Assembly (NCBI RefSeq): GCF_009720485.1
Contig: NZ_CP045245.1
Span: 3,968,001 to 4,032,000 of the forward strand
DNA: 64,000 bases
DNA from: Cellulomonas sp. JZ18
Lineage (GTDB): Bacteria > Actinomycetota > Actinomycetes > Actinomycetales > Cellulomonadaceae
Direction: 5' to 3'
The translations under genes and the position numbers were made by a program. Shown piece by piece: positions 13,787 through 34,735 of the stretch (positions are counted from its first letter, which is position 1; each line of letters opens with the position of its first letter). Under the pieces are notes generated by a model that searched no databases, was not told the DNA's origin, and saw only the letters and a list, made by a program, of their open reading frames with translations.

Positions 13787-13793
13787 CATCGTC

Positions 13794-14534
13794 ATGACGA
13801 CCACCACCTACGTCCTCGTCCCCGGCTTCTGGCTCGGCGCCTCGGTCTGGCGCGCCGTCGCCGACTCGCTGCGCGACCTCGGCCACGTCGTGCACGCCGT
13901 CGACCTGCCCGGCATGGGCGAGCGCGCGCACCTCGCCTCGCCGGCGACCGACCTGACGACCCACGTCGACGACGTGGTGCACCTGCTCGAGGAGCACGAC
14001 CTGCACGACGTCGTGCTCGTCGGTCACAGCTACGGCGCCCTCGTCACGACCGGTGCGGCCGACCGCGCGCCCGAGCGTGTGGCCCGCCTGGTGTACATCG
14101 ACTCGGGCCCCCTGCCGGACGGCATGGCGCAGGCCGACTTCGAGGGACCCGATGCACGGGCGGCCAACGAGGACCTGGTCATGGCGCAGGGCGACGGCTG
14201 GAAGCTCCCGCCGCCGCCCTGGGCCGTGCTCGCCGCCGAGGTGCCCGAGGTCGACGACGTCGCCGTCGCCGCGCTGGTCGAGGGCTCGCAGCCGCAGCCC
14301 TGGCGCACCGCCACCCAGCCGGTCGCGCTCACCGGCGCCTGGGAGCGCCTGCCACGGACGGGAGTGCTGTGCAGCTTCAGCCTGGAGCAGCTGCGGCAGA
14401 TGGCACCCCACGCGCCGGTGTTCGCGCACATGGTCGAGGGTGACTGGACGTACGTCGAGCTGCCGACGTGGCACTGGCCGATGGTGAGCCGACCGGTGGA
14501 GCTCGCCCAGGTGCTGGACTCGGTCAGCCGCTAG
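13794..14534 (+). CDS. Alpha/beta-fold hydrolase (esterase-like)
   Basis: A 246-aa alpha/beta hydrolase. The oxyanion-hole motif VLVPGFWLGASVW lies near residues 7-19. The nucleophile elbow GHSYGAL (about 81-87) holds the catalytic Ser, and the C-terminal catalytic His is in PTWHWPM. It resembles MhpC/EstC-like esterases. No signal peptide, so cytoplasmic. Controlled, in all likelihood, by the divergent WYL regulator. Substrate unknown. Confidence 0.85.
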   Translation: MTTTTYVLVPGFWLGASVWRAVADSLRDLGHVVHAVDLPGMGERAHLASPATDLTTHVDDVVHLLEEHDLHDVVLVGHSYGALVTTGAADRAPERVARLVYIDSGPLPDGMAQADFEGPDARAANEDLVMAQGDGWKLPPPPWAVLAAEVPEVDDVAVAALVEGSQPQPWRTATQPVALTGAWERLPRTGVLCSFSLEQLRQMAPHAPVFAHMVEGDWTYVELPTWHWPMVSRPVELAQVLDSVSR

Positions 14535-15501: not shown

Positions 15502-15722
15502 CCGCTCGCGTGCTGGCGTGAAATCCCCAGTTGCCCGATGCGCCCGGATGTCAGCGAGGGGTGACCACCATGGTCGAAGCTTGACAGCCCCTGTCGCCGG
15601 GCCATACAGACCGGATCGGTGGCGGAGCGGGCGGGCCTTGCGGCGAACGTCTCTGCGACGCCCTGACCCGTCGCTCGGTCGCGTTGCGGCGTCCTTGGCG
15701 GTGCTCGCGGCATCATCAGGTC

Positions 15723-16496
15723 ATGTCGCGCGTGGAGTGGACGCGGCTCGCCGGCGAGGACGTCGAGGCTGTCGTCTCGATGCTGCTGTGTCTGGAGTAC
15801 CCCGATGCCGTCCGGGTGCGCCCTGCACAGGGCGATGGCGGCATCGACGTACTGGTGCCGTTGCCCGACGGCGGATTCGCCGTCTTCCAGGTCAAGCGCC
15901 ACGCCGAGAACCTCGACGCCAGTCAACGGACGAAGCTTGCAGCCTCGCACAAGCGCATGCGAACGTCGGAGTTCGCGCAGCGGTACGACATCCGCCGCTG
16001 GTACCCGACGATGCCGCTCGGTCCCACACCGACGGATCTGATGTGGATGGGCGACGTCGCCGGGGGCCAGCCCTGGGAAGCTCATTGGAAGGGCTTGAGC
16101 TTCATTGAGGCACTCATCTCGAAGTACCCGATGGTCGTGGACTACTACCTGCACGACGGCAAGCAGCGTGCGAACGACGCCATCGCACGGGTCACCGAGT
16201 TGCTCAAGAACCAGTTGGGCGTAGCGGCGGGCAGCCCGCTGAGTCCTCGAGACGCGATCACCACGCTGCACTCCCTGTTCGGTGCGCTGGACGACGCAGA
16301 CCCGTTCAACCTCTATGGCCTGTCTGTTGACCCAACCCGGCCGCAACTGGACCCTGCCGCGTTGCCGGACCGCACGGTCATGGCAGTTCAGTACGAGCTG
16401 CCTGGTGAGTCGTGGGCGACCGTCAAGGTCGTCGCGCGTGCCAACGAGTCGCTCGTCGAGCGCCCGGTCTCTCTGAGGGGTCTGCTGCACGAGTAG
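15723..16496 (+). CDS. Restriction-endonuclease-like protein, 3' end cut by IS
   Basis: A 257-aa soluble product. The segment GDGGIDVLVPLPDGGFAVFQ followed by VK is the D...(Q)xK core of PD-(D/E)xK nucleases of the Mrr/restriction-like type (about residues 38-60). ATG 15723 follows a CATCAT box by 6 nt. The last codons (GLLHE and the stop) lie inside the 26-bp terminal repeat of the IS element, so the native C-terminus is missing and the protein is probably truncated. Likely a DNA-cleaving defence protein at the edge of the island; whether it is still active is unclear. Confidence 0.6.
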   Translation: MSRVEWTRLAGEDVEAVVSMLLCLEYPDAVRVRPAQGDGGIDVLVPLPDGGFAVFQVKRHAENLDASQRTKLAASHKRMRTSEFAQRYDIRRWYPTMPLGPTPTDLMWMGDVAGGQPWEAHWKGLSFIEALISKYPMVVDYYLHDGKQRANDAIARVTELLKNQLGVAAGSPLSPRDAITTLHSLFGALDDADPFNLYGLSVDPTRPQLDPAALPDRTVMAVQYELPGESWATVKVVARANESLVERPVSLRGLLHE

Positions 16497-16502
16497 GTGA
16501 CA
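16477..16502 (+). repeat. IS left terminal inverted repeat
   Basis: 26 bp, an exact inverted match to 17678-17703. It contains the TAG that ends the upstream reading frame. Confidence 0.8.
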
Positions 16503-16509
16503 GCGGGTC

Positions 16510-17356
16510 TCAGGCTGCGAGTGCGACCTGAGTGGTCATGATGGTCTCGAACTCGACCGGCGTCAGGCGACCGAGGCGGGCCTGGCGTCGGCGGCGGTGG
16601 TAGGTCCGTTCGATCCAGATGATGATCGCCAGCCGCAACTCGTCACGGTTGGTCCATCGCCGCCGGTTGAGGACGTTCTTCTGCAGCAGCGCGAAGAACG
16701 ACTCCGTGGCGGCGTTGTCGCCCGCGGAGGCGACCTGGCCCATCGACCCGATCAGGTCGTGGTGGGCGAGCTCGCGCAGGACCTTTCGGCTTTGGAACTG
16801 GCTGCCGCGATCGCGATGGACCACGCACCCCGCCACGTCACCGCGCCGCTGCACCGCACTGGCCAGCGCATTCACGGCGATGCGGCACGTCATTCGGTCG
16901 CTGATCGAGTAGCCGACGATCCGGTTGGAGAACAGTCCTTGATCGCGCACAGGTACAGCCGGCCCTCGGCCGGTTCGGCGCATCGGCCCGGAACTGGCGC
17001 AGGACGAGGTCGTCGTGGGCCGGCGGGCCGGCCTTCTTGCCGTTCCTGCCGCGCTTCTTGCCGAACACCGACCACCAGCCGTGCTCCGACCAGATCCGCG
17101 ACACCGTGCGATCGCAGGCCCGCACACCCGCGCGGGCTACCTCGTCGGCCAGCAGTCGATGCCCGAACTCCGGGTCATCGCGGTGGGCGTCGAACAGCGC
17201 GTTGGCAAGGTGAGCCCGCTGCAGCTCGCGCGCGCCGACGGGCGAGGTGAGCCACCGGTAGTACGGCTGTCGCGCGAGCTTGAGGACCCGGCACGTCACC
17301 GCCACGGGGACCCCGTCGACGGCGAGCTCACTCACGAGCGGGTAGAGCCTTTTCCC
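16510..17356 (-). pseudogene. IS3-family transposase OrfB, degraded
   Basis: The DDE integrase part of the IS3 transposase. The N-terminal half (KRLYPLVSELAVDGVPVAVT, RTVSRIWSEHGWW) is intact. At about 16960-17000 the sequence jumps from RADAPNR to EGRLYLCAIKD, losing the usual WLTDITEH segment that holds the first catalytic Asp. It then shifts frame again to FSNRIVGYSISDRM. The remaining part has HRDRGSQFQS (second Asp) and the distal Glu region (NAATESFFALL). The protein cannot be catalytically complete. Confidence 0.8.
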
Positions 17357-17643
17357 GGCAGCTGCGCCTGAGACAAGTACGCCGCTGCTCGGCGCAGCAC
17401 CTCGTTCTCCTGCTCGAGCAGCCGGATACGCCGGCGCGCCTCGCGCAGCTCGGCCGACTCCGACGCGCTCGTGCCGGGACGGTTGCCGTCCTCGACGTCG
17501 GCGGCACGCAGCCAGTTCCGCAGACACGACTCGGCGATCCCGAAGTCCGCCGCGATCTGCTTGAGCGGAGCCCGCCCGCGGCGAGCGACCGCCACGACGT
17601 CATTCCGGAACTCCTGGGGATAGGGCCTGGGCACGGTGCACAT
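17332..17643 (-). CDS. IS3-family transposase OrfA
   Basis: A 103-aa helix-turn-helix protein (QEFRNDVVAVARRG, FGIAESCLRNWLRAADV) with a C-terminal leucine-zipper-like heptad region (ELREARRRIRLLEQENEVLR), as in IS3/IS911 OrfA. Near its end the run GGGAAAAGG (minus strand, 17356-17348) would allow a -1 shift into the OrfB frame, giving the OrfAB transposase. Confidence 0.88.
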   Translation of the reverse strand: MCTVPRPYPQEFRNDVVAVARRGRAPLKQIAADFGIAESCLRNWLRAADVEDGNRPGTSASESAELREARRRIRLLEQENEVLRRAAAYLSQAQLPGKGSTRS

Positions 17644-17677
17644 CCTTCCAGCGGCGCCCTCAGCGCCACAGGTCAGG

Positions 17678-17703
17678 TGTCACCTACTCGTGCAGCAGAC
17701 CCC
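17678..17703 (-). repeat. IS right terminal inverted repeat
   Basis: 26 bp, an exact inverted match to 16477-16502. It lies 35 nt upstream of the orfA start. Confidence 0.8.
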
Positions 17704-18067: not shown

Positions 18068-19515
18068 ATGCATGCCAGTGACCCCGTCGCTGACGGTCGT
18101 CCGGACCAGGCGGCCTTCGACTTCGTCGACCTCTTCGCCGGCGTCGGCGGGTTCCACGCAGCACTGAAGAGCTACGGCGGCGAGTGCGTCTACGCGGTGG
18201 AGATCGACAAGGCGGCAGCCGCCGTCTACCGGCACAACTGGGGACACGATCCCCTCGGCGACATCACTAAGGACGCGACCGACGGCGTCATGAACGTCGG
18301 CCCCCACGATGTCCTCACAGCCGGCTTCCCATGCCAGCCCTTCTCCAAGTCCGGCGCCCAGCGGGGCATGGAGGAGACCCGCGGGACGCTCTACTGGAAC
18401 ATCCTCCAGATCATCCACTCGCGTAAGCCCACAGTGGTGCTCCTCGAGAACGTTCGGAACCTCGCTGGCCCTCGCCACTTCCACGAGTGGGAAGTGATCA
18501 TCAGCACCCTCCGCGAGGCTGGCTACTGGGTCAGTGACGAGCCGGCCATCTTCTCGCCGCACCTCCTCCCCCGGAGCGCGGCGGCCGTCCGCAAGTACGC
18601 GAGCGCGTCTTCATCACAGCCACTCGCATCCCCGATGACGCGTGGGGGCGCCCTGAGCTGGACGTGGCTCCTGAGCCCGTTGCCTCTCTTCGAGAGCCGA
18701 TCGACGGATGGAAGCCGAAGGCGCAGTGGCACCTGGAGGACATCCTCGACGACTCGCACAACGTGCCAGGCTGTGACCTCTCCGAGCCTGAGCGGCTGTG
18801 GATCAACGCGTGGAACGACTTCGTCGAGCTGATGTACGAGGCGCGCGAAGGGCGCCAGCTCCCTGGGTTCCCACTCTGGGCGGACTCGTGGCGAGACGTC
18901 CAAGACGCATGGCTACCCGACCCCGCTGACGTGCCGGACGCACTCGAAGCACCCGAGATCGACCCGACGTTGCCGGACTGGAAGCGGAGCCACCTCCGCA
19001 ACAACTACCGGTTCTTCATCGAGCATCACCGCGCGATCCGGGCCTGGGCTGAGCGGTGGGGTGTCTTCACGCCTGCGTTCCCGCCCTCCCGGCGGAAGCT
19101 CGAGTGGCAGGCGCAGAAGACGCCACGGCTGTGGGACACCGTCATGCACCTGCGTCCTTCGGGTATCCGCGCGAAGGCTGCCACGTATGTGCCTGCCCTG
19201 GTTGCCATCACTCAGACCAGCATCGTTGGCCCACGGGAGCGCAGACTCTCGCCTCGTGAGACCGCGCGCCTCCAGGGCTTGCCCGACAGCTTCGACTTTG
19301 GAAGCCAGCCAGCGGCTGTCTCCTACCGTCAGATGGGGAACGGCGTGAACGTCGGAGTCGTCTGGCACATCCTTCGGGAGCACGTACGGCGCGACGAGTG
19401 GCTGCTGAAGATGACGCCAGCTGGCGCCCGGATCCGCGACGCCGTGCTGAGCGCACCCCTCAGCCCCGACGGGATTCTCGCCAGCCACGCTCCCTCTGGT
19501 TCGGCCCCTGCCTAG
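18068..19515 (+). CDS. DNA (cytosine-5) methyltransferase (frame break)
   Basis: Methylates cytosine C5 in DNA using S-adenosylmethionine. Visible motifs are motif I DLFAGVGGFH (about 21-30), motif IV GFPCQPFS with catalytic Cys89, motif VI ENVRNL, and near the end RLQGLPDSF and motif X QMGNGVNV. A long target-recognition region lies between. One extra C in the C5 run at 18568-18572 is needed to join the two halves into about 480 aa. It heads a cluster with HNH, Vsr, a 1026-aa protein and a DUF1998 helicase, so it probably marks self DNA for that defence system, with Vsr repairing the resulting T:G mismatches. Confidence 0.88.
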
Positions 19516-19549
19516 ACCCGGCCGGCGCCAAGCCGAAGCACTGCACGAC

Positions 19550-20328
19550 CTAGAGGCCGCACCATTCTCGGTGGGCTCGCAGTGCCTGCGTGCTAGGACG
19601 CTCGTTGACGGCGCGCGGCAGCTTGGCCCGCTGCCCGTCCAGATCCCCGTACGTTGAGTTTCGCAGCGCAGAGCCCATGACGACCGTCTGGGTGCGCTCG
19701 TCGATTGCGATCTGTCCGCCATCCCACAAGCGGTGGATGTCGGCACGAAGGCAGATGCCATTGACGATCACGTTCGTTGCCGGGCCCTTGAACGGAGTGA
19801 TGTGGGCTGCTTCCAGGCCGGTGACCGCATCGCTACCGGTGATCGCGCAGACCTGGCCGTATGCGGCGAGCACGGCAAGACGGAACCGGTCCTGGCCCTC
19901 CCGCACGGCGCGCTCCGCGAGCTGGCGATTGCGCTCGTCGGCGACGTCGGCGGGGTCGAAGAGCGGAGCCGCCATCTCCGGCACCGGCTCGTTGGCTGGG
20001 ACCGGCGCACTGGGAGCGAGGCGCCCTTCGACGCCGTGCTCGGTCACGCCGTCGATCATCACCCGAAGCGCCTCGTTCTTGACCGTTCCACCCGGGCTCC
20101 AGAGGCGCGCATCGAATGGCCGCCGCGTAGCGGCCTCGACGCAGGCCGCGATCAGACCATCCTTGTCCTTGCCTTCGGGCTCTCCCCTAGCGCGACGAGC
20201 ACGGCCTTGAGGAAGTCGGAGCGAACCGTTGAGCCCCGACTCGTGGTGAAATGAGGGATTCCCAACAAGTCCGACAGAACCGCCATCAGCGCGCGTTCCG
20301 GATATTCGACGCCGTATTCTTTTGCCAT
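19550..20328 (-). CDS. HNH endonuclease (frame break)
   Basis: ATG 20328 follows a TACGCT box by 6 nt. The first frame reads MAKEYGVEYPERALMAVLSD; the second carries the nuclease. One extra base in the G3 run at 20177-20179 joins them into about 259 aa. The HNH core is CAITGSDAVTGLEAAHI followed by NGICLRADIHRLWDGGQIAI, with the paired histidines and Asn of the beta-beta-alpha-metal fold. It lies opposite to its neighbours, between the methyltransferase and vsr. It may be the restriction partner of the methyltransferase, cutting DNA that lacks C5 methylation. Confidence 0.78.
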
Positions 20329-20334
20329 GCTAGG

Positions 20335-20340
20335 AGCGTA
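20335..20340 (-). promoter_or_regulatory. -10 box (TACGCT) of leaderless HNH gene
   Basis: TACGCT on the minus strand, 6 nt before ATG 20328. Confidence 0.5.
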
Positions 20341-20455
20341 GGGCACGGCGATCGGCGACAAGGGGACCGATCCGCGTGCTGATGGGTTAAAGCCATCTCG
20401 CACCGGTGCCCACGCCGACTCGTAGCGCGAGCCGCCTCGCAGAGCGATCCTTGAG

Positions 20456-20956
20456 TTGAGTCGGTCGGGTAGGCCATCCCACGCGCTCCCGATCCCGGGC
20501 CCCAAGCGACTGGAGGGCGTCATCGCCAAGAACTATGAGTCGTGGGCGTCGTCCCCGGAGGCGCGCGCCGTCATGCGGGCAAACCGGCGGAGGGACACCG
20601 CACCAGAGGTGGCCGTCCGCAAGGCCGTCCACGCCGCCGGTCTCCGCTTCAGGGTCGACGCGCGGCCGCTGCCGGACGTCAACCGGCGGGCGGACATGGT
20701 CTTCCGGCCGGCCAAGGTCGCCGTCTTCGTCGACGGCTGCTTCTGGCACGGCTGCGTGCTGCACGGCACCGCGCCCCGCACGAACGCTCCCTACTGGTCG
20801 AGCAAGATCACGCGCAATAAGGAGCGCGACGCCGACACGGACCGACGCCTGGCCGAACGCGGATGGGTGTCCCTCAGGTTCTGGGAGCACGAGGACCCGA
20901 TCGCGGCAGCTCGTGCAGTCGTCCTGCTCGTGTCCGAAAGACGTCGATCCGCCTAG
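20456..20956 (+). CDS. vsr: Very short patch repair (Vsr) endonuclease
   Basis: Nicks DNA 5' of the T in T:G mismatches formed when 5-methylcytosine deaminates. Family motifs are present: RRRDTAPEVAVRKAVHAAGLR, RRADMVFRPAKVAVFVDGCF with catalytic Asp, WHGC, and NAPYWSSKITRNKERD. The start is uncertain. TTG 20456 is in frame, but GGAGGG is placed 4 nt before an ATC codon at 20522, where the family normally begins (MAKNYESW-like). Pairing with the nearby methyltransferase is typical. Very likely functional if initiation works. Confidence 0.88.
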   Translation: MSRSGRPSHALPIPGPKRLEGVIAKNYESWASSPEARAVMRANRRRDTAPEVAVRKAVHAAGLRFRVDARPLPDVNRRADMVFRPAKVAVFVDGCFWHGCVLHGTAPRTNAPYWSSKITRNKERDADTDRRLAERGWVSLRFWEHEDPIAAARAVVLLVSERRRSA

Positions 20957-21074
20957 CGCGTCAGCGGCCCTCGCCCGTCGCCCACTCCGCGACTCAGCCG
21001 AGCATGTCGACTTGGCGACGCGCTCAAGTCGCGCACATGTGCTGCCGATCACGTAGCGGGGTGATCTAGTCCGG

Positions 21075-24000
21075 ATGATGCTCTCCGATTGGAACGCGGC
21101 GCTGCATGACGACGTGCGCGCGAAGGGTCGTCGCGATCGGCGGCTGTACCTCTTCGTCGACCGCGAGCACCTCGCGAACGTGTCCGGCCTCGACGAGTCC
21201 GAGGCACTGGATGACTTCATCTCCGCATTCCGCGCCGAGGGAGCGGGACGCCCCTTCGGCCGCGGCGCCCGGGCCGCACTCGAGTGGCGACGCAGCGGGT
21301 ACCTCGGTGACCCCCCGTTCGTGGCCCACCTCGCGATGACTGTTCTTGCCGTGACGGAGGAGTCGCTCGGCAGCTCCCACGGCGTCTACAGGCGACAGAA
21401 CCAGCTGCTCGGCCTGCCGGAGCTGCCCGCACCACCGAATGGGTACGGCGATGACGTCCCTCTGATGTGGGGCGTCTGGAACCACTGGCTTGAAGGCCCT
21501 GGCGCCGCCTTCGGCCGGCCTAGCGCCAAGACCCACCCGCACTGGACCCTGCAAGGGTGGGCACGAAGCCAGGGCCTCATCCGCCATCCGGATCGGCTGC
21601 GAATCGAGCAGTTCTTCGAGGACGGTGGTTGCCCGCGCGTGGGGTCACCGAAGGTTGCAGACCTCATTGCTTGGCTCACGTACCGCGGGGCCTGGGCGCA
21701 GGACTTGCTGAAGCGTGTCGATGACGACGCGGCGCGCGAGGTGTTGCGGGACGTCCTCGAGGACGAGGCTGACCGCTGGCGCAAAGAAGGAACGCGGCCG
21801 CGGAGCGCCGGGGCCGTGCGGGGACTGCTCCTCTATGACGACTGGACGGACACGCTCAGCGGTGCAGTCCTGGCTGAGCCCGCGTGGATCGGGTCCTCCG
21901 TCAACATCGGCAGCGGCGGCACGGTGACTGTCGACGCGCTCACGCAGTACGTCGAGGTTGACCTGGGTGATGGTGTGCTGACGCGGCTGCGCGATGGTCT
22001 CCGCCACCAGCTGACTCCGACGGTGTCCGTCGACTTCGGCGGCGGCGGAGCGTTCGTGTTCCGAGACGAGCCGGCGCTAGAGGGAAGGCTCCAGGCACGC
22101 GTCATCGACCGCGCTGCCGTTCATCATGCGCTCGCACACCGCGACCGACTGTCTGAGGTCCAGGCCGCCCTCCGTGCTGCAGGTATCCCTCCACCCAGGA
22201 CCAAGCCCGTAGCGGACTCGGCATGGCACTGGCTCGAGGACATCTGGCTGGACCGGGAGGTTCCCGCCCTTCGCGCGCTCGGCCTCGGCGCCGCGCTGCC
22301 GACCTCCTCGGCAGGGCTCAGCCTCATTGGCGGGCTACGCGTCGGTGCACCGGCCACCTTCCTCGCGGGTGGTGAGCCCGATGTGATGCCACACGGCACG
22401 GATGAGCCCGTCCTCGTTCGAGTGGACCGCGCGGCCGTCAAGCTGGGGGCCGATGGCCTGATCGCGTTGGCCGAGCTCGCGCTCGACCCCGGGAGCCACG
22501 AGGTCTCCGACGGCTCGTCGGGTGTGAAGTTCCGGACCGTGTCGCACATGCGGGAGGTCGCAGCCGCATCAGCAGCCGGCCGGCCGTTGCGGCGCGCACC
22601 GTCGGGGCGGCTGCTGATGGGCGAGACGGAGAAGAGCCCCGCGCCGCCCTCACTTTCCGGTGCCCAGGTGACTGGGCTGGACATCCGAGCAGCACACGTG
22701 ATCCACAACCCCGGAGCCGAGTGCCTCGTTCTCACGCGCGATGGGGGCGTCTTCCAGGTCAGTCCGCTCGCCCCTCGCTGGCTCGACCGGGCGGCCCTCA
22801 CGGTCGACGCGATCGACGTCGACGCCGTCGCTTCACGGGTTCCCGACGCGGCGTACGTCATCGCCCGGCACCCCAAGACTCGCGGCAAGGTCGCCGCCGC
22901 CTACTCCCCGAGCACGCCCTCGACCCCTTATCCGCTCCTGCCTCGCCCCGACCTCATCCACGAGTTGGTGACCGACAACTGGCGCTGGGTGGGAACGCCG
23001 GACGACGTGGGAGCACGGCGTTGCCTTTCGCGCGCCCTCAACGGGCGGCAACGCGGCGAGGCGCCTCGAGCCTCACGCCCCGCGGCCACGCGAAGGGAGC
23101 AAGCTGTCCGGCCGGATCTCCGTCACGAACGGGTCGTCCCGAATCCGTATGACGACGTCCTGACCTGGCTGTCGGAACGAGAGCATGCGGGGGCCGACCG
23201 CCCCGACGTCGCCGCGACCTGGGCATGGGTGTGCCGACGTATGGGGCTCGAGGACCAGGTCGGCGACTGGCGGCTCGCGCTCAAGTTGCTGACCGACATG
23301 GGACACATCGAGCAGAACTTCCAGACCGGGAGGGTCTCTCCTGCTCCGGCCACGGCCGTGGCGCTGCCGAACGCTAGGGGCCTCTTCCTGCTGACGGGCG
23401 CCCGGCCACTGCGGCTGTTGGAGCGTCTGGACGACCCGGACGACGGCGACCCGATCGTCTCCGAGGCCGTGTGCTCGCTGACCGTCCACTACAGGACGCC
23501 GATGCGCCGCGCCGGTCGACCGGCTGGGCCCTCGACGGTCTACCTCGAGATCGACCTCGCCCGGGTTGACGCGGTCCGGGCCGGCCTGGAGCGGCTGGGT
23601 GTCCTTCTCCACGGGGGCACCGCCGACTTCCTTCTTGCCTCCACCCCGAGCCTGCGGGAGGCGGCCTCCGCCGGCCAGACCTTCACCCACGCTCCCGGCC
23701 GCGAACCCGTGGTCTACCGCTGCGTCAACGGAGAGTGGCGTTGGCTCCGCGCGGCTGATGACCGCTTGCCGGGCCTCTATCGATACAAGCAGGGTCACCG
23801 ACGAGTCTTCGTCTGGCGCGACGCGTTCGAAGGCACCATGTCAGAGGTGGAACCCGCCGTCGGACAGCTGCTCGCCCGCGCAGAGGAGAAGCTCCCGAAG
23901 ATGTGGCACGAGCACTTCACTGACCGCCTCTTCGTTCCGCGCGCGATGGCGCTGCCTTCGATGGTTGAGCGGGCGCTGATCCTGAGGACAGGGCTACCCC

Positions 24001-24155
24001 CCTACCTCTTCCGAGGGCTTCCCCCGCGCGGCGGCGCCGAGTTCCGTGCGCGCGTGTTCGAGAACGTCGATGACGGCGCGGCTGAGCTGGTCGCCCGAGC
24101 GCTGCAGATTCCGGTCGTCCCGGAGTACGAAGAGATGAGGAGCCTCGATGAGTGA
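21075..24155 (+). CDS. Large Druantia-associated protein (DruH/DruG-like), 1026 aa
   Basis: A 1026-residue protein without signal peptide or membrane segments and without any enzyme motif I can name. It overlaps the helicase start by 8 nt, so the two are translationally coupled and probably act as one complex. Druantia defence loci encode a ~1000-aa partner immediately upstream of the ~1800-aa DUF1998 helicase, and position, size and overlap fit that. The sequence shows an N-terminal segment with RLYLFVDREHLANV, a mid region rich in beta strands, and a C-terminal part with WHEHFTDRLFVPRAMALP. Frame intact; codon use is more relaxed than in the chromosomal backbone. Confidence 0.6.
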   Translation: MMLSDWNAALHDDVRAKGRRDRRLYLFVDREHLANVSGLDESEALDDFISAFRAEGAGRPFGRGARAALEWRRSGYLGDPPFVAHLAMTVLAVTEESLGSSHGVYRRQNQLLGLPELPAPPNGYGDDVPLMWGVWNHWLEGPGAAFGRPSAKTHPHWTLQGWARSQGLIRHPDRLRIEQFFEDGGCPRVGSPKVADLIAWLTYRGAWAQDLLKRVDDDAAREVLRDVLEDEADRWRKEGTRPRSAGAVRGLLLYDDWTDTLSGAVLAEPAWIGSSVNIGSGGTVTVDALTQYVEVDLGDGVLTRLRDGLRHQLTPTVSVDFGGGGAFVFRDEPALEGRLQARVIDRAAVHHALAHRDRLSEVQAALRAAGIPPPRTKPVADSAWHWLEDIWLDREVPALRALGLGAALPTSSAGLSLIGGLRVGAPATFLAGGEPDVMPHGTDEPVLVRVDRAAVKLGADGLIALAELALDPGSHEVSDGSSGVKFRTVSHMREVAAASAAGRPLRRAPSGRLLMGETEKSPAPPSLSGAQVTGLDIRAAHVIHNPGAECLVLTRDGGVFQVSPLAPRWLDRAALTVDAIDVDAVASRVPDAAYVIARHPKTRGKVAAAYSPSTPSTPYPLLPRPDLIHELVTDNWRWVGTPDDVGARRCLSRALNGRQRGEAPRASRPAATRREQAVRPDLRHERVVPNPYDDVLTWLSEREHAGADRPDVAATWAWVCRRMGLEDQVGDWRLALKLLTDMGHIEQNFQTGRVSPAPATAVALPNARGLFLLTGARPLRLLERLDDPDDGDPIVSEAVCSLTVHYRTPMRRAGRPAGPSTVYLEIDLARVDAVRAGLERLGVLLHGGTADFLLASTPSLREAASAGQTFTHAPGREPVVYRCVNGEWRWLRAADDRLPGLYRYKQGHRRVFVWRDAFEGTMSEVEPAVGQLLARAEEKLPKMWHEHFTDRLFVPRAMALPSMVERALILRTGLPPYLFRGLPPRGGAEFRARVFENVDDGAAELVARALQIPVVPEYEEMRSLDE

Positions 24156-27100
24156 CGAGCGACCCACGGCGCCGCAGACCATCGATGGCCTCCTGGGCTA
24201 CCTCCAGAGTGCTTTCCTCCGGTACTACGAGACGGCCTACGAGCTGCGGGACGAAGGCATCCGGGGCGAACGTCACCGTCTCCTCAGTGGGCGAGGCGCG
24301 GTGTTCAGCGAGCCGATCGTCGAGTTGATGCCCACCTACCGCCCATCCGACTCGACGCTGACCTCGATCTTCGAGGACCTCGCGCTGCCCGAAGCGGCAG
24401 AGCTGATCTCTGGCGGACTGCTGCCCTACGACAAGCCGTTCAGGCACCAAGAGGCCGCGCTTCGCGAGTCCGATGCAGGCTCGGACGTGATCGTGGGCAC
24501 CGGGACGGGCTCTGGTAAGACAGAGGCGTTCCTGCTGCCGGTGATCGCGGACCTGGTTCGCGAGTCGAGGTCATGGGCGCCCTCGAACAACACGACATCG
24601 AACCGCTGGTGGAAGGGATCGAACCCGTACCTCCCGCAGCGGGACGGGGAGACGGGCCGCGCACCGGGTATCCGGGCGCTCCTGCTCTACCCCATGAACG
24701 CACTGGTCGAGGACCAGCTCGTCCGGCTCCGAGAAGCCCTGGACTCGCCCGCCGCTAGGACATGGCTTGCGGCGAACCGCCAGGGGCACCGCTTCTACTT
24801 CGGGCGCTACACCGGGCGGACGCCACTCCCCGGAACTCGCGAGTCCGCGACACCGCAGCGCGTCGACCGACTGAGGGAGCTGATGCGAAGCGCCGACCGG
24901 CGGCACGACGCTCTGCTCGGCCGCATTAGAGACGGGCGACTGGAGGGGACTCAAGGTACTTCCTGCCCGCCCTTGACGGCGCAGAGATGAGGTCCCGGTG
25001 GGACATGCAGCACCGAGCGCCCGACATCTTGATCACGAACTACAGCATGTTGTCGATCGCGCTCTCCCGCTCCGACGAGCAGAACATGATCGCGCAGACG
25101 CGCGAGTGGCTGAAGGCTGACGGCGCCCGATTCACACTCGTGGTCGACGAGCTCCACATGTATCGGGGCACGGCAGGCACGGAGGTGGCCCTGCTCCTGC
25201 GACGGCTCTTCGCAGCACTCGGACTGGACGAACACCCGGAGAAGCTTCGCATCATCGGGACGTCGGCGAGCATCCAAGACGACGCCGAGGGCCGCCAGTT
25301 CCTCAGCGAGTTCTTCGGTCGCGAGGATGCGACCAGGTTCCAGTTCGTCCGGAGCGAGCCCGAGGACGCCCAGCCCGCAGGCGATCTCGCACCTTGGGCC
25401 GACGGCTTCCTGACTGGCGGGGCTGGGCCGAGTGATCTTCCCGATACGGCGACGCTGCGAGGATCCTTCGCCGCAGCGATGGCTTCAGAGGGGGAGATGC
25501 GCCCACGGCGCGCTTCGCACCTTGCGAGGGCGTTGTTCCCAAGCCTCGATCCTGGCGACGCCGAGACGGCGCTGAACAACCTGGTCGCTGTGCTGGGCAG
25601 CCACGACGAGCCGCCCGTCCGACTCCGCTCCCACATGTTCTTCAGGACGCTCCAGGGTCTCTGGGCTTGCTCTTCGCCGACCTGCACCGCCGTCGAGGCG
25701 CCTGACCGCACCGAGGGACGTCGAATCGGCAAGATCTACTCCTCGGCGCGCCTCACGTGCGAGTGCGGCTCGCGCGTTCTCGAGCTGCTGTACTGCCAGT
25801 CGTGTGGCGAGAGCATGCTCGGCGGTTACGTAGCGGCTGCGGGCAGCCGCCAGTTCCTGCTGCCCACCATGACGTCGCTCGACGACCTCCCGGACCGCGC
25901 GGAGCACGGTCGGGACGCAGCGGGCTACCGCGTCTACTGGCCTACTGAGCGGACACCGGTTGTCACTGCGACGTGGAACCGCACCGGCACCAAGCTGGCC
26001 ACAGACTCGGAAGCGCCGAAGTACGCCATGTCCTTCGTCAAGGCATCCCTGCTGCCGGGAACCGGGCAACTGAGCGCCAAGCCTGGACGAGTCGCTACCG
26101 GGTACGTGTACCGACTCGAGGCAGGCGGCGCCGAGTCCCGCATGCCGGCGTTCCCGACAAAGTGCCCCTCGTGCGGTGACGACTGGGAGTACCGGCAGAA
26201 CGGCGTGGTGGAAGACCGGCGCCGTTCTCGCTCTCCGATCCGCACCCAGGGCGTCGGCTTCGACCGAGCGAACCAGGTTCTCACGGGCGCTCTCAAGAGA
26301 CGGCTTGATTCGAGTCTGGTCGTCTTCTCCGACAGCCGGCAGGGGGCGGCGCGTGTAGCGGCCAATCTGGAGCTAGCTCACTACCTAGACCTCGTGCGAG
26401 CACTCGCTCTTGAAGCCCTGACCGAGGGTTCCCGCACGCTTGAGCTGGCTGAGGCGTACGTCAGCAAGACGAACCACGGAGCCGAGGCGAAGGCTGCCTT
26501 CAAGGCGGTCCAGAACCTCTCCTCCACGGCGGCCATGGCGCTCATGACGCAGGCGAACGGCATGGACCTGGACGCGAGCGAGGTCGCGGCCCTCTCTCAT
26601 CTCGCCGAGGCGATGAACGGACGTCCGACGCTCGTTGACTTGCAGCGCGCCGTCCTGCCCAAGCTCCTGGCGCTGGGTGTGAATCCCGCCGGGCCAGCCG
26701 CGAGCCTCCAGCACACGCGAACCGGGCGATCGTGGACACGGCTGTTCGACTGGTCGGCAGAGCCGATCACCGCCAGGGAGTCTCAACTGGACTCCGATGA
26801 GCGCAACCTCCTGCGCGACCTCGAGGCGACACTCGGCGAGCAGATCGTTCGCACCGTCTTCGCGGGAGGCGACCGCGACGTCGAGTCGATCGGACTCGCT
26901 CGCGCCATACCCAGCACGCCTTTCATGGTGGCGGGGTTGTCCGACAGCGCGGCGGGCGAGTTCGCCGGCTCCGTGATCCGCCTTCTCGGCCGTCGCCGGC
27001 GCACGACGTGGACGAGCGACGGCGCCCAAGGCTGGCCCACACCCGTCAAGAACTACGCCAACGCGGTCGCCGCGCTGCAGAAGACCGCGCTCGATGGTGA

Positions 27101-29488
27101 TGGCCTTCTGGAAGCGCTGGGCGCGCACCTGAAGGCTGGGAGTCAGACGAGTTTCCGGCTGGACCCCGGAACGGTCCGACTCGCCACGGCAGACGCGCCG
27201 GTCTGGCGGTGCACCACGTGTCGCACGCGCCACCTGCACCCCAGCGCGGGAGTGTGCGTGAGCTGCCTCCGTGAGCTCCCTCCAACCCCTGAGCAGCAAG
27301 CCGCACACGAGGCCGACTACTACGCCTGGCTCGCCTCCGAGGACGGAGGCGCCTACCGGCTCCACTGCGAGGAGCTCACAGGGCAGACCGATCCCCTGGA
27401 GTCACAGGCTCGCCAGGCTCGATTCCAAGGTGTCTTGCTCGATGACGAGGAAGTGCCGCGAGTCGACACGATCGACGTCCTGTCGGTGACCACGACCATG
27501 GAAGCCGGCGTCGACATCGGCGCACTCAAGGGCGTCGTCATGGCGAACATGCCACCTCAGAGGTTCAACTACCAGCAGCGAGTCGGGCGCGCGGGGCGTC
27601 GGTCAGAGCACCTCGCCGTGGCGCTGACGGTCTGCCGCGGCGCACGCAGCCACGACGAGCACTACTTCTCCAACCCGGAGGCCATCACCGGCGATGCCCC
27701 ACCTCAGCCGTTCCTTGACACCGCCGCGGTCCCCATCATCAGGCGGGCGCTAGCCAAGGAAGCACTGGTTCGGGTCTTCGCTGCTGCTCAGGCGTCCGTT
27801 GCCGGCTTCGAGGCGGGACGAAACGTCCACGGACAGTTCGGGTCAGTCGACTTCTGGACGTCGTCCCCAGAGCTTCGCCGCTTCGTCAAGTCGCACCTCT
27901 CGAGCGTCGGACCAGAAGCGACAGCTGCCGCGGCCAACCTCCTGCGCGCAACACGGGTAACCGACGCGACACCCGTGGACTTGGCGGGCTGGATAACAGA
28001 CGAGCTCTTCGAGCTCATGCAGCTCGCGGCAGACCAGGCAAGGGCGTCGGATCTCTCCGAGGCGCTGGCCCAGGCGGGGATCCTGCCCATGTTCGGCTTC
28101 CCGACCCAGGTGCGGTTGCTTTACACGCGAGCGCCATCGGCGGCAAGGGAACCCGACACGCTGGACCGCGATGCCCCGATCGCGGTCTCTGAGTTCGCTC
28201 CCGGATCGGAGATCGTCAAGGACAAGCAGATCCACACGGCGGTAGGAGTCGTCGACTTCTACCAGCGCGCCAATGGCACGTGGACAGAGGGGGACGACCC
28301 ACTCGGGCCCCGAACGTCCGCAGGCGTTTGCCGCGCATGCTTGGCGATCACCTACAGCAGCGCCGACCTCTGCCCCACGTGTGGAGCCAGCGCTCCGGAC
28401 TACGCGGTCGTGGATCTCGTCGAACCGACCGGCTACCGCACCTCGTTCTCCCCGCGTGACTACGAGCAGCTGGGCGACCCTGTTGCCCGAGCTGCGCAGC
28501 CCCGTCTGGCGCTGCCGGCGGCCGGCGGCGAAGGGCGGGGTGAGAACGCATGGGTCCTCGCGGCCAACGCTGAGGTCGTCTCCGTCAACGACAACAACGG
28601 CTCGCTGTACGCCATGACGCCGACCACCCGGGACTACAAGGGCAAAGGCTCACCGGGACATGGACTGGTGGAGCGGTCGCTGCTCGTGGACAAGGACCGC
28701 AAGGAACGAGCCGGCCTCAGCTTCGTCTCGCCGGCAGGCAGCCCGCTACCTCCGATCGCCCTATCAGCCCGTCGACGCACCGATGTGCTCACCGTCGCGC
28801 TTCACACGACACCGACCGGTCTCGCCATTGATCCCCGGATCCCGGCGGGCCGGGGGCTTGGGCGTCACTTGGCTTCCTCTTCCGCGACGCGGCCGCGAAG
28901 TGGCTCGACATCGGTCCCGACGAGATCGAGGTCGGCGTCCACCCGCGACCTGTTAACGGCTCGGTACGAGGTCAGATGTTCATCGCCGACACCCTCGAGA
29001 ACGGCGCGGGCTACGCCAAGAGGATGGAGGGGAGGTTCGAGGAACTGCTCGACGTCGCGGACGCGTATGCCCAAGGACTCGCGACCCACGGCGACGACGG
29101 TCCGTGTGACTCGAGTTGCTACCGCTGCCTTCGTGACTACGGGAACCGGTCATGGCACCCGCTCCTGGACTGGCGCCTCGCGGTCGACGTTCTCGACCTG
29201 CTCCGCGGGCGAGGCATCGACTTCGACCGGGACGCACAACGCGATGCTCGGGCGGCCAGTGCGCTGGCGACCGACTTCAACTTCACGGTCGAGGAGGGTC
29301 CTGTTCCTGCGATCACCGGCCGGAGCGGCCAGATCCTCGCGGTCCTCCATCCGTTCGAGAACCCGAACGCCGACGTGCCCAGCGAGCGCGTCGCCAGCGT
29401 CAAGGACCAGTGGCCGGGAGCAGACTTCTGCTCGTCCTTCGAGTTGCTCAGGCGCCCCGGGTCCCTCGTCGGACGTCTCATGGCCTGA
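24148..29488 (+). CDS. Large DEAD/DEAH helicase with DUF1998 domain (DruE-like, two frame breaks)
   Basis: About 1780 aa after adding one G at 24945-24948 and one at 28852-28856. Walker A is VGTGTGSGKTEAF (about 115-127). LYPMNALVEDQL is motif Ia, VVDELHMYRGTAGTEVA is the DExH box, and GTSASI is motif III. VVFSDSRQGAARVA and TTTMEAGVDIGALKG are in the second RecA lobe, with QQRVGRAGR as motif VI. Several Cys pairs (CECGSR, CQSCGE, CPSCGDD, CTTCRTRH, CPTCGAS) suggest zinc ribbons. The C-terminus has DUF1998 features (ADTLENGAGYAKRM, CDSSCYRCLRDYGN). It translocates on DNA and is the effector-type subunit of Druantia-like systems. DISARM DrmA/B and MrfA are related but smaller. Confidence 0.75.
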
Positions 29489-29628
29489 CCGACAAGGCCC
29501 CGTGGGAACACTGGGCTCACCGGGCTCTCGGGTTCGGCCAGTCGCGTGATCAGGACGCACGATCTCGGGGGAGCCCCTCGCACTCCCCTATGGTCCGAAT
29601 GGTCCTGTCCTCGGATCACCCGCCGCGC

Positions 29629-29634
29629 TACGTT
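29629..29634 (+). promoter_or_regulatory. -10 box (TACGTT) of leaderless small gene
   Basis: TACGTT, then 6 nt, then ATG 29641. It gives the 99-aa gene its own promoter behind the helicase. Confidence 0.5.
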
Positions 29635-29640
29635 CCGAAC

Positions 29641-29940
29641 ATGTCAAAGGAAGACGAGCTCGCCGCCCTCGCACGTCTCGTGGGTGCCACCAACGTCCGC
29701 CTCGGTGTCGGGTCGTCCGTGCCGAAGGCCCTCTTCGATGCGATCTGCAGCCGCTTCGGTCTCGATGCGAGCGGAGCGATGCCGGCACAAGCGGAGCGAA
29801 TCGTGCGGGCTGCGGGCATGCCGTACGTCAGGGCTGCTTTCGACAGCCGTAACTCCGTCTCGGGCGGGGGGTCGACGGTCACGCTCGAGGGACTGCAGCA
29901 GCTCCGTACCGCTGTGCAGAAGCTGATCGCGCGCGAGTAG
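29641..29940 (+). CDS. Small protein, 99 aa, in defence cluster
   Basis: Starts at ATG 29641, directly after a leaderless-type -10 box. The product begins MSKEDELAALARLVGATNVR and continues with a helix-rich core (PKALFDAICSRFGLD, AQAERIVRAAGMPY) and a C-terminal segment GGGSTVTLEGLQQL. The pattern recalls N-terminal or accessory modules linked to restriction enzymes, but no catalytic residues are evident. It lies 150 nt behind the DUF1998 helicase on the same strand and could be a regulator or accessory subunit of that system. Function unknown. Confidence 0.65.
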   Translation: MSKEDELAALARLVGATNVRLGVGSSVPKALFDAICSRFGLDASGAMPAQAERIVRAAGMPYVRAAFDSRNSVSGGGSTVTLEGLQQLRTAVQKLIARE

Positions 29941-30759: not shown

Positions 30760-31072
30760 GCGTCGGTCCGCCCACCGAGATCCATCCGGAAACCGGGGAC
30801 CATGCCTTGACATCAAGCGATTGGGCGTCGATCTGAAGCATCTCCCCGGGACGCGTGACGACGTAACGGCCCTGAAGGTCGCCGGGTCTGCTCGCCTGCG
30901 AGAGCCGCACAGACGCGGGCTTGTCGATCCCGGCGTTCGCGCTCGCAATGTCCAAGACCTTGCTGAGAGCAGACTTCGAGACCGTGGTGTAGTCAACTCC
31001 GCGGGCCAGAAGGCGCTGCCTGAACATCGCCACTCGGTTCTTCTTTGACACGGACGAGCGCGACCGCCGCGA
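30760..31072 (-). pseudogene. Mu/TnsB-type transposase fragment
   Basis: The minus strand reads SKKNRVAMFRQRLLARGVDYT then RPGEMLQIDAQSLDVKAW. The second motif matches the start of the catalytic core of Mu/Tn7 TnsB-like transposases and integrases (PGE-x-x-QID-x-x-x-LDV, first DDE Asp). Only about 105 residues remain and they run without a stop into the lipoprotein remnant. Evidence of past transposition inside the island. Confidence 0.5.
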
Positions 31073-31089
31073 GAGTTCCGTCGCGCCAG

Positions 31090-31409
31090 GGGCCACACGA
31101 GAGCGACCGCCTCGTCGAGGAACGCGGGATGTCGCGCGCTGACGCCGTCGCCGAGGCGCGACGGCAGCTTCAGGGACAGCACCCTCTGCATGGGCCCGAC
31201 CAGCGAGCCGGTGGTAACCCCGAGCAGATCACCGGCATGGGCGACGGCGGCGTCAACTCGTCGATCGGCTCCCAATGGCGCAACAACGCTGACGACCTCC
31301 AGGCAGCCATGGACGACGCTCTGGTCGACGCCGACATCGACCCGGCCGTGTGGGGCGACATCCGCATGAACGTGCGCTCCGCCTGGTCAACGCGGTGCCG
31401 GTACCGTGA
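31090..31409 (+). pseudogene. Polymorphic toxin C-terminal fragment (Ntox15-like)
   Basis: The plus-strand frame reads MSRADAVAEARRQLQGQHPL, then HGPDQRAGGNPEQITGMGD and VNSSIGSQWRN. The HxxD and following AGG and NSSIGSQW signatures match the Ntox15 nuclease toxin domain of type VI/VII polymorphic toxins. There is no N-terminal delivery part: the sequence starts at a rearrangement junction near 31080. A one-base break near 31370 leads to LRLVNAVPVP and TGA 31407-31409, which overlaps the GTG of the next gene. Probably a displaced toxin tip or orphan module. Confidence 0.55.
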
Positions 31410-31834
31410 CGGACGTGAGCACCGCGAGCGAGGCAGCGAACGCCAAGTACGGCCCCAACGGCGACCTCGTCTCCGCCTTCATCAACGCGCTGACGGCGGG
31501 CGGCCTCGACTGGCAGCAGGTGGTTGCCGATTCGAGGACGCCCGAGCGCCGCTCGGCCATCCAGGCAGTCGGAGATGTCCCGTGGCCGGCCCCCCGACTC
31601 GCTGCTGTGGACAAGGCGGGCCTCGACGCGTTCGCCGCGCTCGGGCTGTCGCGCTCCGACTTCTCCCACCCGCTGGACCTCGGCGCGCTCAAGGTCGCCA
31701 TCTCGGCGGCGTCGAAGGCGGTCGCTCTCTGCGACCGAGTCGGTGCTGACGTCGTGCGGACGCTGCTGCAGCCTTTCGCGAACCAGGGGGTCGCGGTGGC
31801 GCACGAGGCGATCGCGCGGGCGTCGCAGGGCTGA
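31406..31834 (+). CDS. Putative immunity protein for the adjacent Ntox15-like toxin
   Basis: A 142-aa soluble, helical protein starting VTDVSTASEAANAKYGPNGD. Its GTG overlaps the toxin-frame stop by 4 nt (GTGA), the usual toxin-immunity coupling. No known immunity family is recognised. It contains helices such as GLDWQQVVADSRTPERRSAI and a C-terminal helical part VVRTLLQPFANQG. Immunity function is inferred from position only. An orphan immunity gene can persist to protect against related toxins. Confidence 0.6.
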   Translation: MTDVSTASEAANAKYGPNGDLVSAFINALTAGGLDWQQVVADSRTPERRSAIQAVGDVPWPAPRLAAVDKAGLDAFAALGLSRSDFSHPLDLGALKVAISAASKAVALCDRVGADVVRTLLQPFANQGVAVAHEAIARASQG

Positions 31835-31895
31835 CCCTCCGGCAAGGCCCACCGCATCGGGCGGAGTTGTGCCGGACCTGGCGCGTGACTGGTTC

Positions 31896-31901
31896 TACGC
31901 T
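31896..31901 (+). promoter_or_regulatory. -10 box (TACGCT) of leaderless Abi_C gene
   Basis: TACGCT, then 7 nt, then GTG 31909. Confidence 0.5.
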
Positions 31902-31908
31902 GCCCGGT

Positions 31909-32793
31909 GTGACGATCAGGACCCCGCAGCGGCGAGAACTCGTGAGCGAGCGCGCCCGCACGGCGGTTCGAGACCTCATGAGCGGCACGACGCTGCGTGA
32001 GATCGATGAGCTGTGGCAGGACGAGTTGTTCGCGCCCGTGTTCGACGACCCGGAGCCGGTCGGCGGACAGCGTGTCACGCACTTCCAGGGGTACATGGAC
32101 CAGGTGGACTGGACCGACCCCATCCAGGTATCTCGGGCGCTGCGCGTCTTCGAGGCAGCACTCGCGTTCGCTTTCGTGCCGGGCGCCGAGTACCCGAACG
32201 CGGCGACCATGGCCCGGCTGCGACGCCTGTGGGAGCGGGACGGCTACGAGTGGACCGACGAAGGAAAGATCGTCGGCGGTCCGACGACGACCGTGGTCGC
32301 GACGGAGTTGCTGGACAACCTCTCGGACCCACGTGTCATCCGCGACCACCTGGACCGCATCGAGCGCGCAGTTGCTCAGGCGGACCCTTCCCTGGCGATC
32401 GGCTCTGCCAAGGAACTCATCGAGAGCACCGCCAAGCTCGCCCTTGGGGAGTTGGGCGAGGAGGTTCCCTCGGGAGCCGAGGTTTCGGACCTGGTGCGCC
32501 GGGTGCAGGAGGCGCTGGCGATCCACCCCAGCAAGGCGGCGCCCGGCCCGGATGGCTCGGACGGTGTTAAGAAGATCCTCGGTGCCAGCGTCACGATCGC
32601 GAACAGCGTCGCGGAGCTTCGCAACTCGTACGGCACCGGCCACGGCAAGGACGTCACCCACACCGGCTTGGGCGCCAGGCACGCTCGGCTTGTGGTGAAC
32701 GCGGCACGAATGTGGGTCGAGTTCGTCCTCGACACCCTCTCGGACGAGAAGGCTCCGTGGAGGAAGGCGTCTGCCGGGACCAAAGCGCACTGA
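31909..32793 (+). CDS. Abortive-infection C-terminal (Abi_C) domain protein
   Basis: A 294-aa protein. The C-terminal third carries the Abi_C-like pattern AIGSAKELIESTAKLALGEL, then KKILGASVTIANSVAELRNS and YGTGHGKD, with an RN-x-x-x-x-x-GHG nuclease-like motif of HEPN type. The N-terminal part (residues 1-150) is unassigned. A TACGCT box 7 nt before GTG 31909 sets the start. Probably a phage-triggered RNase of the abortive-infection type. It is stand-alone in the island, with no evident partner antitoxin. Confidence 0.72.
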   Translation: MTIRTPQRRELVSERARTAVRDLMSGTTLREIDELWQDELFAPVFDDPEPVGGQRVTHFQGYMDQVDWTDPIQVSRALRVFEAALAFAFVPGAEYPNAATMARLRRLWERDGYEWTDEGKIVGGPTTTVVATELLDNLSDPRVIRDHLDRIERAVAQADPSLAIGSAKELIESTAKLALGELGEEVPSGAEVSDLVRRVQEALAIHPSKAAPGPDGSDGVKKILGASVTIANSVAELRNSYGTGHGKDVTHTGLGARHARLVVNAARMWVEFVLDTLSDEKAPWRKASAGTKAH

Positions 32794-33352: not shown

Positions 33353-34735
33353 CTACATCTGCATGTCGACGAAGCGCGAGTAGTGCCCTTGGAACGCGAC
33401 GGTGATCGTGTCCGTCGGGCCGTTACGGTGCTTCGCGACGATCAGGTCGGCCTCACCCGCGCGCGGTGATTCCTTCTCATATGCGTCTTCACGATGCAGA
33501 AGAATTACCATGTCCGCATCCTGTTCAATAGAACCACTTTCGCGCAGGTCGCTCATCGCCGGCCGCTTGTCGGTGCGCTGCTCGGGACCACGGTTCAGCT
33601 GCGAGATCGCGATCACGGGGACCTCGAGCTCCTTGGCGAGGAGCTTGAGCGCGCGCGAGAACTCGGAGACCTCCTGCTGGCGGGACTCGACGCGCTTGCC
33701 GGACGTCATCAGCTGGAGGTAGTCGATGACGACGAGCTTGAGGTCGTGCCGCTGCTTCAGGCGCCGGCACTTGGCCCGGATCTCCATCAGCGACATGTTC
33801 GGCGAGTCGTCGATGAACAGCGGCGCCTCGGAGATGCGGCCCATCGTCGCCGCGATCTTCGCCCAGTCCTCCTCGCCCATCGCACCCGTGCGCAGCTTCT
33901 GCAGGTGCACGCGCGCCTCGGCGGACAGCAGACGCATCGTGATCTCGTTGCGGCTCATCTCGAGCGAGAACACGACGGACGCCATGTTGTGCTTGATGGC
34001 CGCGGACCGGACGATGTCGATGCCGACCGTCGACTTGCCGATGGCGGGTCGGGCGGCGATGACGATCATCTGCCCGGGGTGCAGGCCGTTCGTCAGCCGG
34101 TCCAGGTCGGCGAACCCGGTCGGCACGCCGATCATGCCCTCGCCGCGGTGGCCCGCCGCCTCGATCTCGTCGACGGTGCCGCCGATGATCTCGGACAGCG
34201 GCAGGTAGTCCTCCGACGCGCGCCGCTCGGTGACGGCGTAGACCTCCGCCTGGGCGTTGTTGACGAGCTCGTCGACGTCGCCGCCGTCGGTCGCGTAGCC
34301 GAGCTGGACGATGCGGGTGCCGGCCTCGACGAGCTTGCGGAGGATGGAGCGCTCGCGCACGATCCGCGCGTAGAAGCCGGCGTTCGCGGCGGTCGGCACG
34401 GACGCGATGAGGGTGTGCAGGTAGGCGGCGCCGCCGATGCGGCCGATCTCGCCGCGCTTGGTCAGCTCGTCGGAGACCGTGATCGCGTCGGCCGGCTCGC
34501 CGCGGCCGTACAGGTCGATGATCGCGTCGTAGATCGCCTCGTGCGCCGGCCGGTAGAAGTCGGTCCCCCGCACCTGCTCGATGACGTCGGCGATGGCGTC
34601 CTTGCTGATCATCATGCCGCCGAGCACCGAGCGCTCGGCCTCGAGGTCCTGCGGCGGCGTCCGGTCGAACCCGCCGCCCCCGCCGCGGTTGCCCGTGTCC
34701 GGCGGTGCGCCGTACTCGAGGTCCTCGATGGTCAC
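33353..34735 (-). CDS. dnaB: Replicative DNA helicase DnaB
   Basis: The hexameric 5'-3' fork helicase, loaded at oriC and driving the replisome. The 460-aa product has an N-terminal domain (about 30-130) and a RecA-type ATPase with P-loop ARPAIGKS (218-225). It also has VVFSLEMS, LVVIDYLQLM and the RESGSIEQDADM region (398-409). The frame is intact. Codons from E399 to about S423 (33541-33467) are AT-rich (AGT GGT TCT ATT GAA and so on), unlike the rest of the gene. This is exactly around the ESG/SIE site where DnaB inteins insert. No intein is present now. Confidence 0.95.
   Translation of the reverse strand: MTIEDLEYGAPPDTGNRGGGGGFDRTPPQDLEAERSVLGGMMISKDAIADVIEQVRGTDFYRPAHEAIYDAIIDLYGRGEPADAITVSDELTKRGEIGRIGGAAYLHTLIASVPTAANAGFYARIVRERSILRKLVEAGTRIVQLGYATDGGDVDELVNNAQAEVYAVTERRASEDYLPLSEIIGGTVDEIEAAGHRGEGMIGVPTGFADLDRLTNGLHPGQMIVIAARPAIGKSTVGIDIVRSAAIKHNMASVVFSLEMSRNEITMRLLSAEARVHLQKLRTGAMGEEDWAKIAATMGRISEAPLFIDDSPNMSLMEIRAKCRRLKQRHDLKLVVIDYLQLMTSGKRVESRQQEVSEFSRALKLLAKELEVPVIAISQLNRGPEQRTDKRPAMSDLRESGSIEQDADMVILLHREDAYEKESPRAGEADLIVAKHRNGPTDTITVAFQGHYSRFVDMQM

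Follow-up and report, generated by a model that had tools for sequence, protein, structure and literature searches.

Which kind of defense system is encoded by a cluster of six genes in Cellulomonas sp. JZ18, and do the DNA methyltransferase and endonuclease genes within the cluster belong to that system? The stretch of DNA analyzed here, called the window, comprises 64 kb (contig NZ_CP045245.1, positions 3,968,001 to 4,032,000), and all coordinates given below are window positions unless another locus is named. The core of the locus consists, in this order, of genes for a C5-cytosine methyltransferase of the DruM class (+ strand), an HNH endonuclease (- strand), a Vsr-type endonuclease (+), a 1026-amino-acid DruF-DruL protein (+), the helicase DruE (+), and a 99-amino-acid protein (+), referred to as p99. 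A first-pass annotation of the sequence had named these six genes, and all of them were present about where it had placed them, but DruE was spread over three reading frames and DruM and HNH over two each. On balance, we lean towards reading the locus as a predicted anti-phage system of the Druantia type II/IV lineage, belonging to an actinobacterial clade of its own, marked by the fusion of DruF and DruL into one chain, with DruM providing a self-mark and the system as a whole being intact.

Assignment of the helicase and its partner

The gene at 24148 to 29488 (+ strand) encodes a putative YprA-family helicase. The PADLOC profile DruE4 matched its three pieces with 300.5, 1249.7, and 160.4 bits, covering profile positions 12 to 251, 274 to 1577, and 1594 to 1822 of 1829. 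On the main piece, both DruE4 and DruE2 (1111.4 bits) scored above 1,000 bits, which bears out the proposed membership in Druantia, whereas DrmA of DISARM reached 28 bits at most; best matches to DISARM, which would have spoken against that membership, were thus not what was obtained. The DUF1998 domain assigned to the helicase was recovered as the equivalent C-terminal zinc domain MZB (2.3e-8), and the helicase motifs DELH, GTSAS, and QRVGRAGR are kept. The annotated length of about 1780 amino acids does not correspond to any single open reading frame (ORF) in the window and is right only when the gene is read across frames, because the intact DruE of a related locus (L051) has 1781 amino acids. 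In an alignment of the DruE C-terminus inspected by eye, no obvious catalytic D/E-x-K pattern was seen. For types I and II, a Vsr-like domain at this C-terminus is described as inactivated in the available part of PMC12458937. Judged by its profile matches, the helicase is DruE of the Druantia II/IV lineage and neither the type III protein nor a DISARM helicase.

The ORF of the 1026-amino-acid protein (21075 to 24155, + strand) overlaps that of DruE by 8 bases, as had been noticed earlier. Its product had been interpreted as DruH or DruG next to DruE. This assignment did not hold, since all 11 PADLOC families that matched were DruF or DruL. DruF4 matched residues 4 to 240 (1.5e-29) and DruL4 the C-terminus (4.6e-30), and hhalign gave probabilities of 99.9 for a DruF part (residues 10 to 579) and 99.7 for a DruL part (approximately residue 700 to 1026, the end), the latter opening with a winged-helix-like domain. 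The PADLOC DruF and DruL models gave the fused chain only about 100 bits. Among the best 7,994 candidates scored, 51 protein clusters, that of the window included, were members of the fused-chain family; we take the organisms shown for it, such as Cellulomonas, Micromonospora, Actinoplanes, and Dactylosporangium, to be all actinobacterial. By sequence comparison, this family has diverged from typical DruF and DruL.

The long DruF2 proteins of loci L022 to L026 (1004 to 1155 amino acids) could be aligned to the fused chain over the whole length. In all three that were tested, the C-terminus matched DruL (L022, 1e-7; L025, 3.5e-11; L026, 2.5e-13), and because of these matches, DruL looks like the C-terminal part of a long DruF that is carried as a separate gene in type IV. 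In a Micromonospora sp. ATA32 locus (L055, 498 to 3688), the fused chain occupies two frames that meet at approximately residue 660, near the DruF/DruL boundary. This arrangement may be either a natural split or a frameshift.

A clade of DruE loci with the fused chain

When genome contigs were scanned, five named loci with the fused chain were obtained, L051 to L055, of which L051 derives from Actinotalea ferrariae. Together with the window, they were compared with 14 further DruE loci, giving a set of 20. In a tree of the 20 DruE sequences, the six linked to a fused chain formed one clade with a support of 100/100, separate from DruE of loci with split type IV genes (L021, L059, and L065), from that of loci with long DruF (L022 to L026), and from other DruE. 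The earlier suggestion of a distinct variant is thus supported.

Neighboring genes were called with hidden Markov models built in this analysis, and the L021 stretch was extended. A C5-methyltransferase gene was found in all six clade loci and in 7 of the 14 others (13 of 20 overall), and a Vsr gene in 5 and 6, respectively (11 of 20), in line with the initial view that the two are no chance neighbors of the helicase. In the only clade locus without Vsr (L055), the contig ends a short way upstream. Vsr occurred only together with a methyltransferase (11 of 13 loci with the latter versus 0 of 7 without; Fisher's P = 4.6e-4), a value that is indicative, as the loci are related and their flanks unequal. 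A gene for a DruK-like nuclease directly followed DruE in 12 of the 14 other loci (PADLOC confirmed DruK in the four tested, L021, L024, L025, and L027) versus none of the six clade loci, in which a relaxed search revealed no DruK-like gene either. The HNH gene is inconstant in the variant: it was detected in two clade loci (strongly in the window, weakly in L052) and in two others (strongly in L022, weakly in L065), making 4 of 20, and p99 was present in two clade loci and in none of the 14 others.

Eighteen plasmid records with DruE were found, and eight of these loci were opened, four of which contained a methyltransferase and one a Vsr gene. On plasmid pR76 of Agrobacterium pusense, a cytosine methyltransferase gene is followed by genes for two large proteins and then by DruE. 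Directly after DruE comes the Vsr gene, annotated as "very short patch repair endonuclease", and an annotated HNH gene lies 2 kb past it. The complete set of six genes was not seen beyond the window in any of the 20 DruE loci or the eight plasmid loci. On an Alisedimentitalea plasmid (L099, 17499 to 20113), the genes after the DruE operon encode a cytosine methyltransferase and a protein annotated as a restriction enzyme of the MvaI/BcnI family.

Methyltransferase, Vsr, HNH, and p99

The two ORFs of the methyltransferase gene (18068 to 19515, + strand) matched Pfam DNA_methylase (1.6e-49 and 1.2e-13) and PADLOC DruM2 (PDLC00034), the latter with 282.9 bits at positions 5 to 171 and 340.5 bits at positions 205 to 454 of 457. 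PCQ and ENV motifs are present, which we take to be those of C5-methyltransferases. Within the clade, the methyltransferases belong to unlike classes with 25 to 29% identity between classes, while DruF-DruL and DruE stay, as would be expected of exchangeable self-marks.

The Vsr ORF (20426 to 20956, + strand) has no fixed start codon, the true start being probably internal. It matched Pfam Vsr (4.6e-18), and an alignment to Escherichia coli Vsr (1cw0) gave 8.2e-14; the conserved E, D, and H positions, presumably the catalytic residues, are retained. The HNH gene (19553 to 20328, - strand, ATG start at 20328) matched Pfam HNH_2 (5.1e-14) and the PADLOC type II restriction HNH profile (3.9e-7). 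It had been suggested to act as the cutter of the system; given its sporadic occurrence in the DruE loci and a family that is common elsewhere (390 matches), such a role is at best weakly indicated. In L052, an HNH_2 protein adjoining Vsr and the methyltransferase matched PADLOC HNH (2.6e-23), type II HNH (2.8e-15), and Pfam HNH_2 (6.6e-7), with 29% identity to the L022 HNH protein over 153 residues.

The p99 gene (29641 to 29940, + strand) belongs, by its protein matches and their neighborhoods, to a methyltransferase/Vsr-linked family. There were 71 protein matches, its own included, and p99 occurred in 4 of 220 genomes of the host's family, that of the window among them. Because p99 adjoins a C5-methyltransferase and Vsr in all three of the other genomes, with no DruE within 17.5 kb, the three proteins look like one cassette, comprising p99, a DruM-class methyltransferase, and Vsr. 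In the clade locus L054, p99 likewise lies near both genes. A protein of approximately 330 to 339 amino acids, 60% identical between L083 (11490 to 12509) and L054 (18951 to 19943), is encoded near the methyltransferase/Vsr/p99 genes of these two loci. It had no match in the libraries tried and is possibly an unrecognized cassette partner.

Proposed mechanism and competing explanations

Protein families, gene linkage, the clade, and retained motifs were obtained directly from the sequences. From these we infer methylation as a self-mark and a DNA-sensing step, as follows. DruM would methylate a motif of the host genome at cytosine C5 and thereby mark it as self, and Vsr would nick the T:G mismatches that arise from deaminated methylated cytosines, so that the mark could be kept without a mutation load. 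DruF-DruL may sense incoming DNA or the infection state and then recruit DruE, which would track along and unwind the invading DNA, blocking its replication. The cutting step is assigned to some further partner, because no nuclease signature was found in DruF-DruL or in the DruE C-terminus. This proposal draws on the DruE, DruF, DruL, and DruM profiles, the fully supported clade, the linkage of methyltransferase and Vsr, the conserved Vsr positions, the pR76 gene order, and a report on type III, in the accessible text of which DruE is a helicase-nuclease effector acting on replication intermediates that contain single-stranded DNA and DruH is the likely sensor (PMC13192584). In Mycobacterium smegmatis, DruH-DruE is reported to prevent circularization and replication of phage DNA (PMC13316683, as far as its available portion goes).

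The main alternative, possible but in our view not probable, is that two systems lie side by side, with DruM, Vsr, p99, and HNH forming a type II restriction-modification set and DruF-DruL and DruE a methylation-free Druantia system. A number of observations favor this explanation and weigh against a single self-marking system. In L083 and L084, no DruE accompanies the methyltransferase/Vsr/p99 set, and in L082 the set is found in the same stretch as DISARM DrmA (748 bits). Nuclease-like neighbors of the methyltransferase were recognized in three of the six clade loci, although from unlike families: the HNH proteins of the window and L052, both of which match the type II restriction profile, and, in L053 (2602 to 3867), a 421-amino-acid protein with matches to the methylase-associated MTaX1 (1.7e-17) and, below the cutoff, to PDDEXK_5 (0.0039), encoded between the methyltransferase and DruF-DruL. 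The annotated restriction enzyme of L099 also adjoins a methyltransferase, and PADLOC type IV is defined by DruE, DruF, and DruL, without DruM and DruG, in the part of PMC8565338 available. On the other hand, every clade locus carries a C5-methyltransferase, compared with half of the other loci, and no nuclease-like neighbor is common to all clade members, none having been recognized next to the methyltransferase in L051, L054, and L055.

A more speculative variation is that methyltransferase, Vsr, and p99 together make up a transferable cassette for self-marking that is joined to unlike YprA-helicase systems, namely, this Druantia clade and DISARM. Attack and marking modules would then swap and evolve separately, and Vsr might also be a recruited cutter in the clade without DruK. 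We regard this as unlikely.

The broken reading frames raise the further question of whether the locus is a decaying relic, inactivated by frameshifts in DruM, HNH, and DruE. Frame changes were placed by tblastn with proteins of relatives (those of L051 for DruM, the L022 HNH protein for HNH) at approximately 18562 to 18571 in DruM, 20164 to 20224 in HNH, and 24939 to 24951 and 28838 to 28856 in DruE, whose pieces extend from 24148 to 24990, from 24987 to approximately 28856, and from 28838 to 29488. The relatives have single intact ORFs, the L051 DruM protein comprising 486 and the L022 HNH protein 272 amino acids. That the frame changes in one locus number four speaks for decay and against an intact system, as does the impression, not expressed as a rate, that the breaks noticed are denser per length in the island carrying the locus than in its flanks. 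Every piece, however, stays open, with 44 to 74% identity to the intact relatives compared. In the narrow transition zones of the one DruM and the two DruE breaks, there are G/C runs of 4 to 5, expected by chance in approximately 9 to 14% of cases per such zone; the HNH zone also has a G/C run of 4 or more but is too wide to count (36% by chance). Similar breaks occur outside the island. The HTH and WYL halves of a WYL-type regulator (12719 to 13807) lie in different frames, and the gene at 56466 to 58622 has a probable frameshift, its counterpart in a relative (G003) being one ORF; both are a warning on the quality of the assembly. Finally, the host genome, a single contig, has a completeness of 96.66%, compared with 99 to 100% for most genomes of the genus. 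Because of the breaks outside the island, the G/C runs, and the low completeness, we infer that assembly error is likelier than decay, in which case the system would be intact in the cell; a relic appears improbable.

That Vsr itself replaces DruK as the cutter of this variant is the least probable explanation, for although the clade lacks a DruK-like gene, mostly has Vsr, and keeps the catalytic positions in the window protein, Vsr also occurs alongside DruK (in the extended L021 and in L024, L025, L060, and L062), is confined to methyltransferase-containing loci among the 20, and accompanies methyltransferases where DruE is missing.

Genomic setting

The locus lies on an island bounded by an IS3-family element (16477 to 17703, - strand) on one side and dnaB (33356 to 34738, - strand) on the other. 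The element, which is beside the locus and no part of the system, has rve and HTH_Tnp_1 domains and terminal inverted repeats of 49 nucleotides that are 80% complementary. GC content is lower in the island (approximately 0.65 to 0.71) than across most of the flanks (approximately 0.70 to 0.80), and the region extends roughly from 15.0 to 33.3 kb. In G003, whose DnaB is 95% identical, the two flanking matches are approximately 3.5 kb apart, compared with approximately 18.4 kb in the window, so the island is absent there. Near dnaB, the region from 31024 to 32793 contains two defence-like genes, one whose ORF includes an Ntox15 domain (1e-10) and one for an Abi_C protein (9.7e-24; PADLOC AbiJ, 1.3e-8). 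The ORF at 15585 to 16496, on the left edge of the island, gave a sub-threshold match to the Mrr_cat restriction endonuclease domain (0.037).

Relation to described systems

The window resembles Druantia type IV in that DruE4 is the best helicase profile and homologues of both DruF and DruL are present. It differs from the split form, found in L021, L059, and L065, in that DruF and DruL are fused, no DruK-like gene is at the locus, and a DruM2 match adjoins the operon. It should be noted that L021, with typical DruF, DruL, and DruK, is also near a C5-methyltransferase. Type II (DruM, DruF, DruG, and DruE), named Type IV CoCoNuT in the portion of PMC12458937 available, is matched by the DruM2 profile on the methyltransferase, the high DruE2 score, and the whole-length alignment with long DruF2, whereas Vsr and p99 are extra in the window. 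The DruG profile PDLC00024 gave no match in 10 genomes and none in 14 controls; being silent everywhere, it says nothing on an absence of DruG. Type III differs in the partner of the helicase, which in the window is DruF/DruL by 11 of 11 PADLOC families, DruH not being among them.

Outside Druantia, the Vsr protein resembles that of the E. coli Vsr/Dcm pair in family, in its catalytic positions, and in occurring only near C5-methyltransferases in the 20 loci, but the methyltransferase of the window is of the DruM class and sits with Druantia genes. DISARM (DrmA and DrmMII) shares a YprA-family helicase combined with a C5-methyltransferase, and the same kind of methyltransferase/Vsr/p99 cassette stands beside DrmA in L082, yet the helicase scores decide for DruE by 1,250 versus 28 bits. 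In the literature, Vsr is treated as a helicase or effector domain (PMC12458937 and PMC11090510) and tabulated under restriction-modification (PMC7251935), as far as the accessible parts of these sources go. Among openly accessible papers, the titles and opening abstract text seen named no separate Vsr gene or DruF-DruL fusion in Druantia.

With a self-mark of the kind proposed, Druantia II/IV would gain a testable rule for distinguishing self from non-self, namely, 5-methylcytosine marking with built-in mismatch repair, and DruL may be regarded as the detached C-terminus of a long DruF. The analysis also defines a clade that scores poorly with current DruF and DruL profiles and has no DruK-like gene adjoining, which may be the place to seek the missing nuclease.
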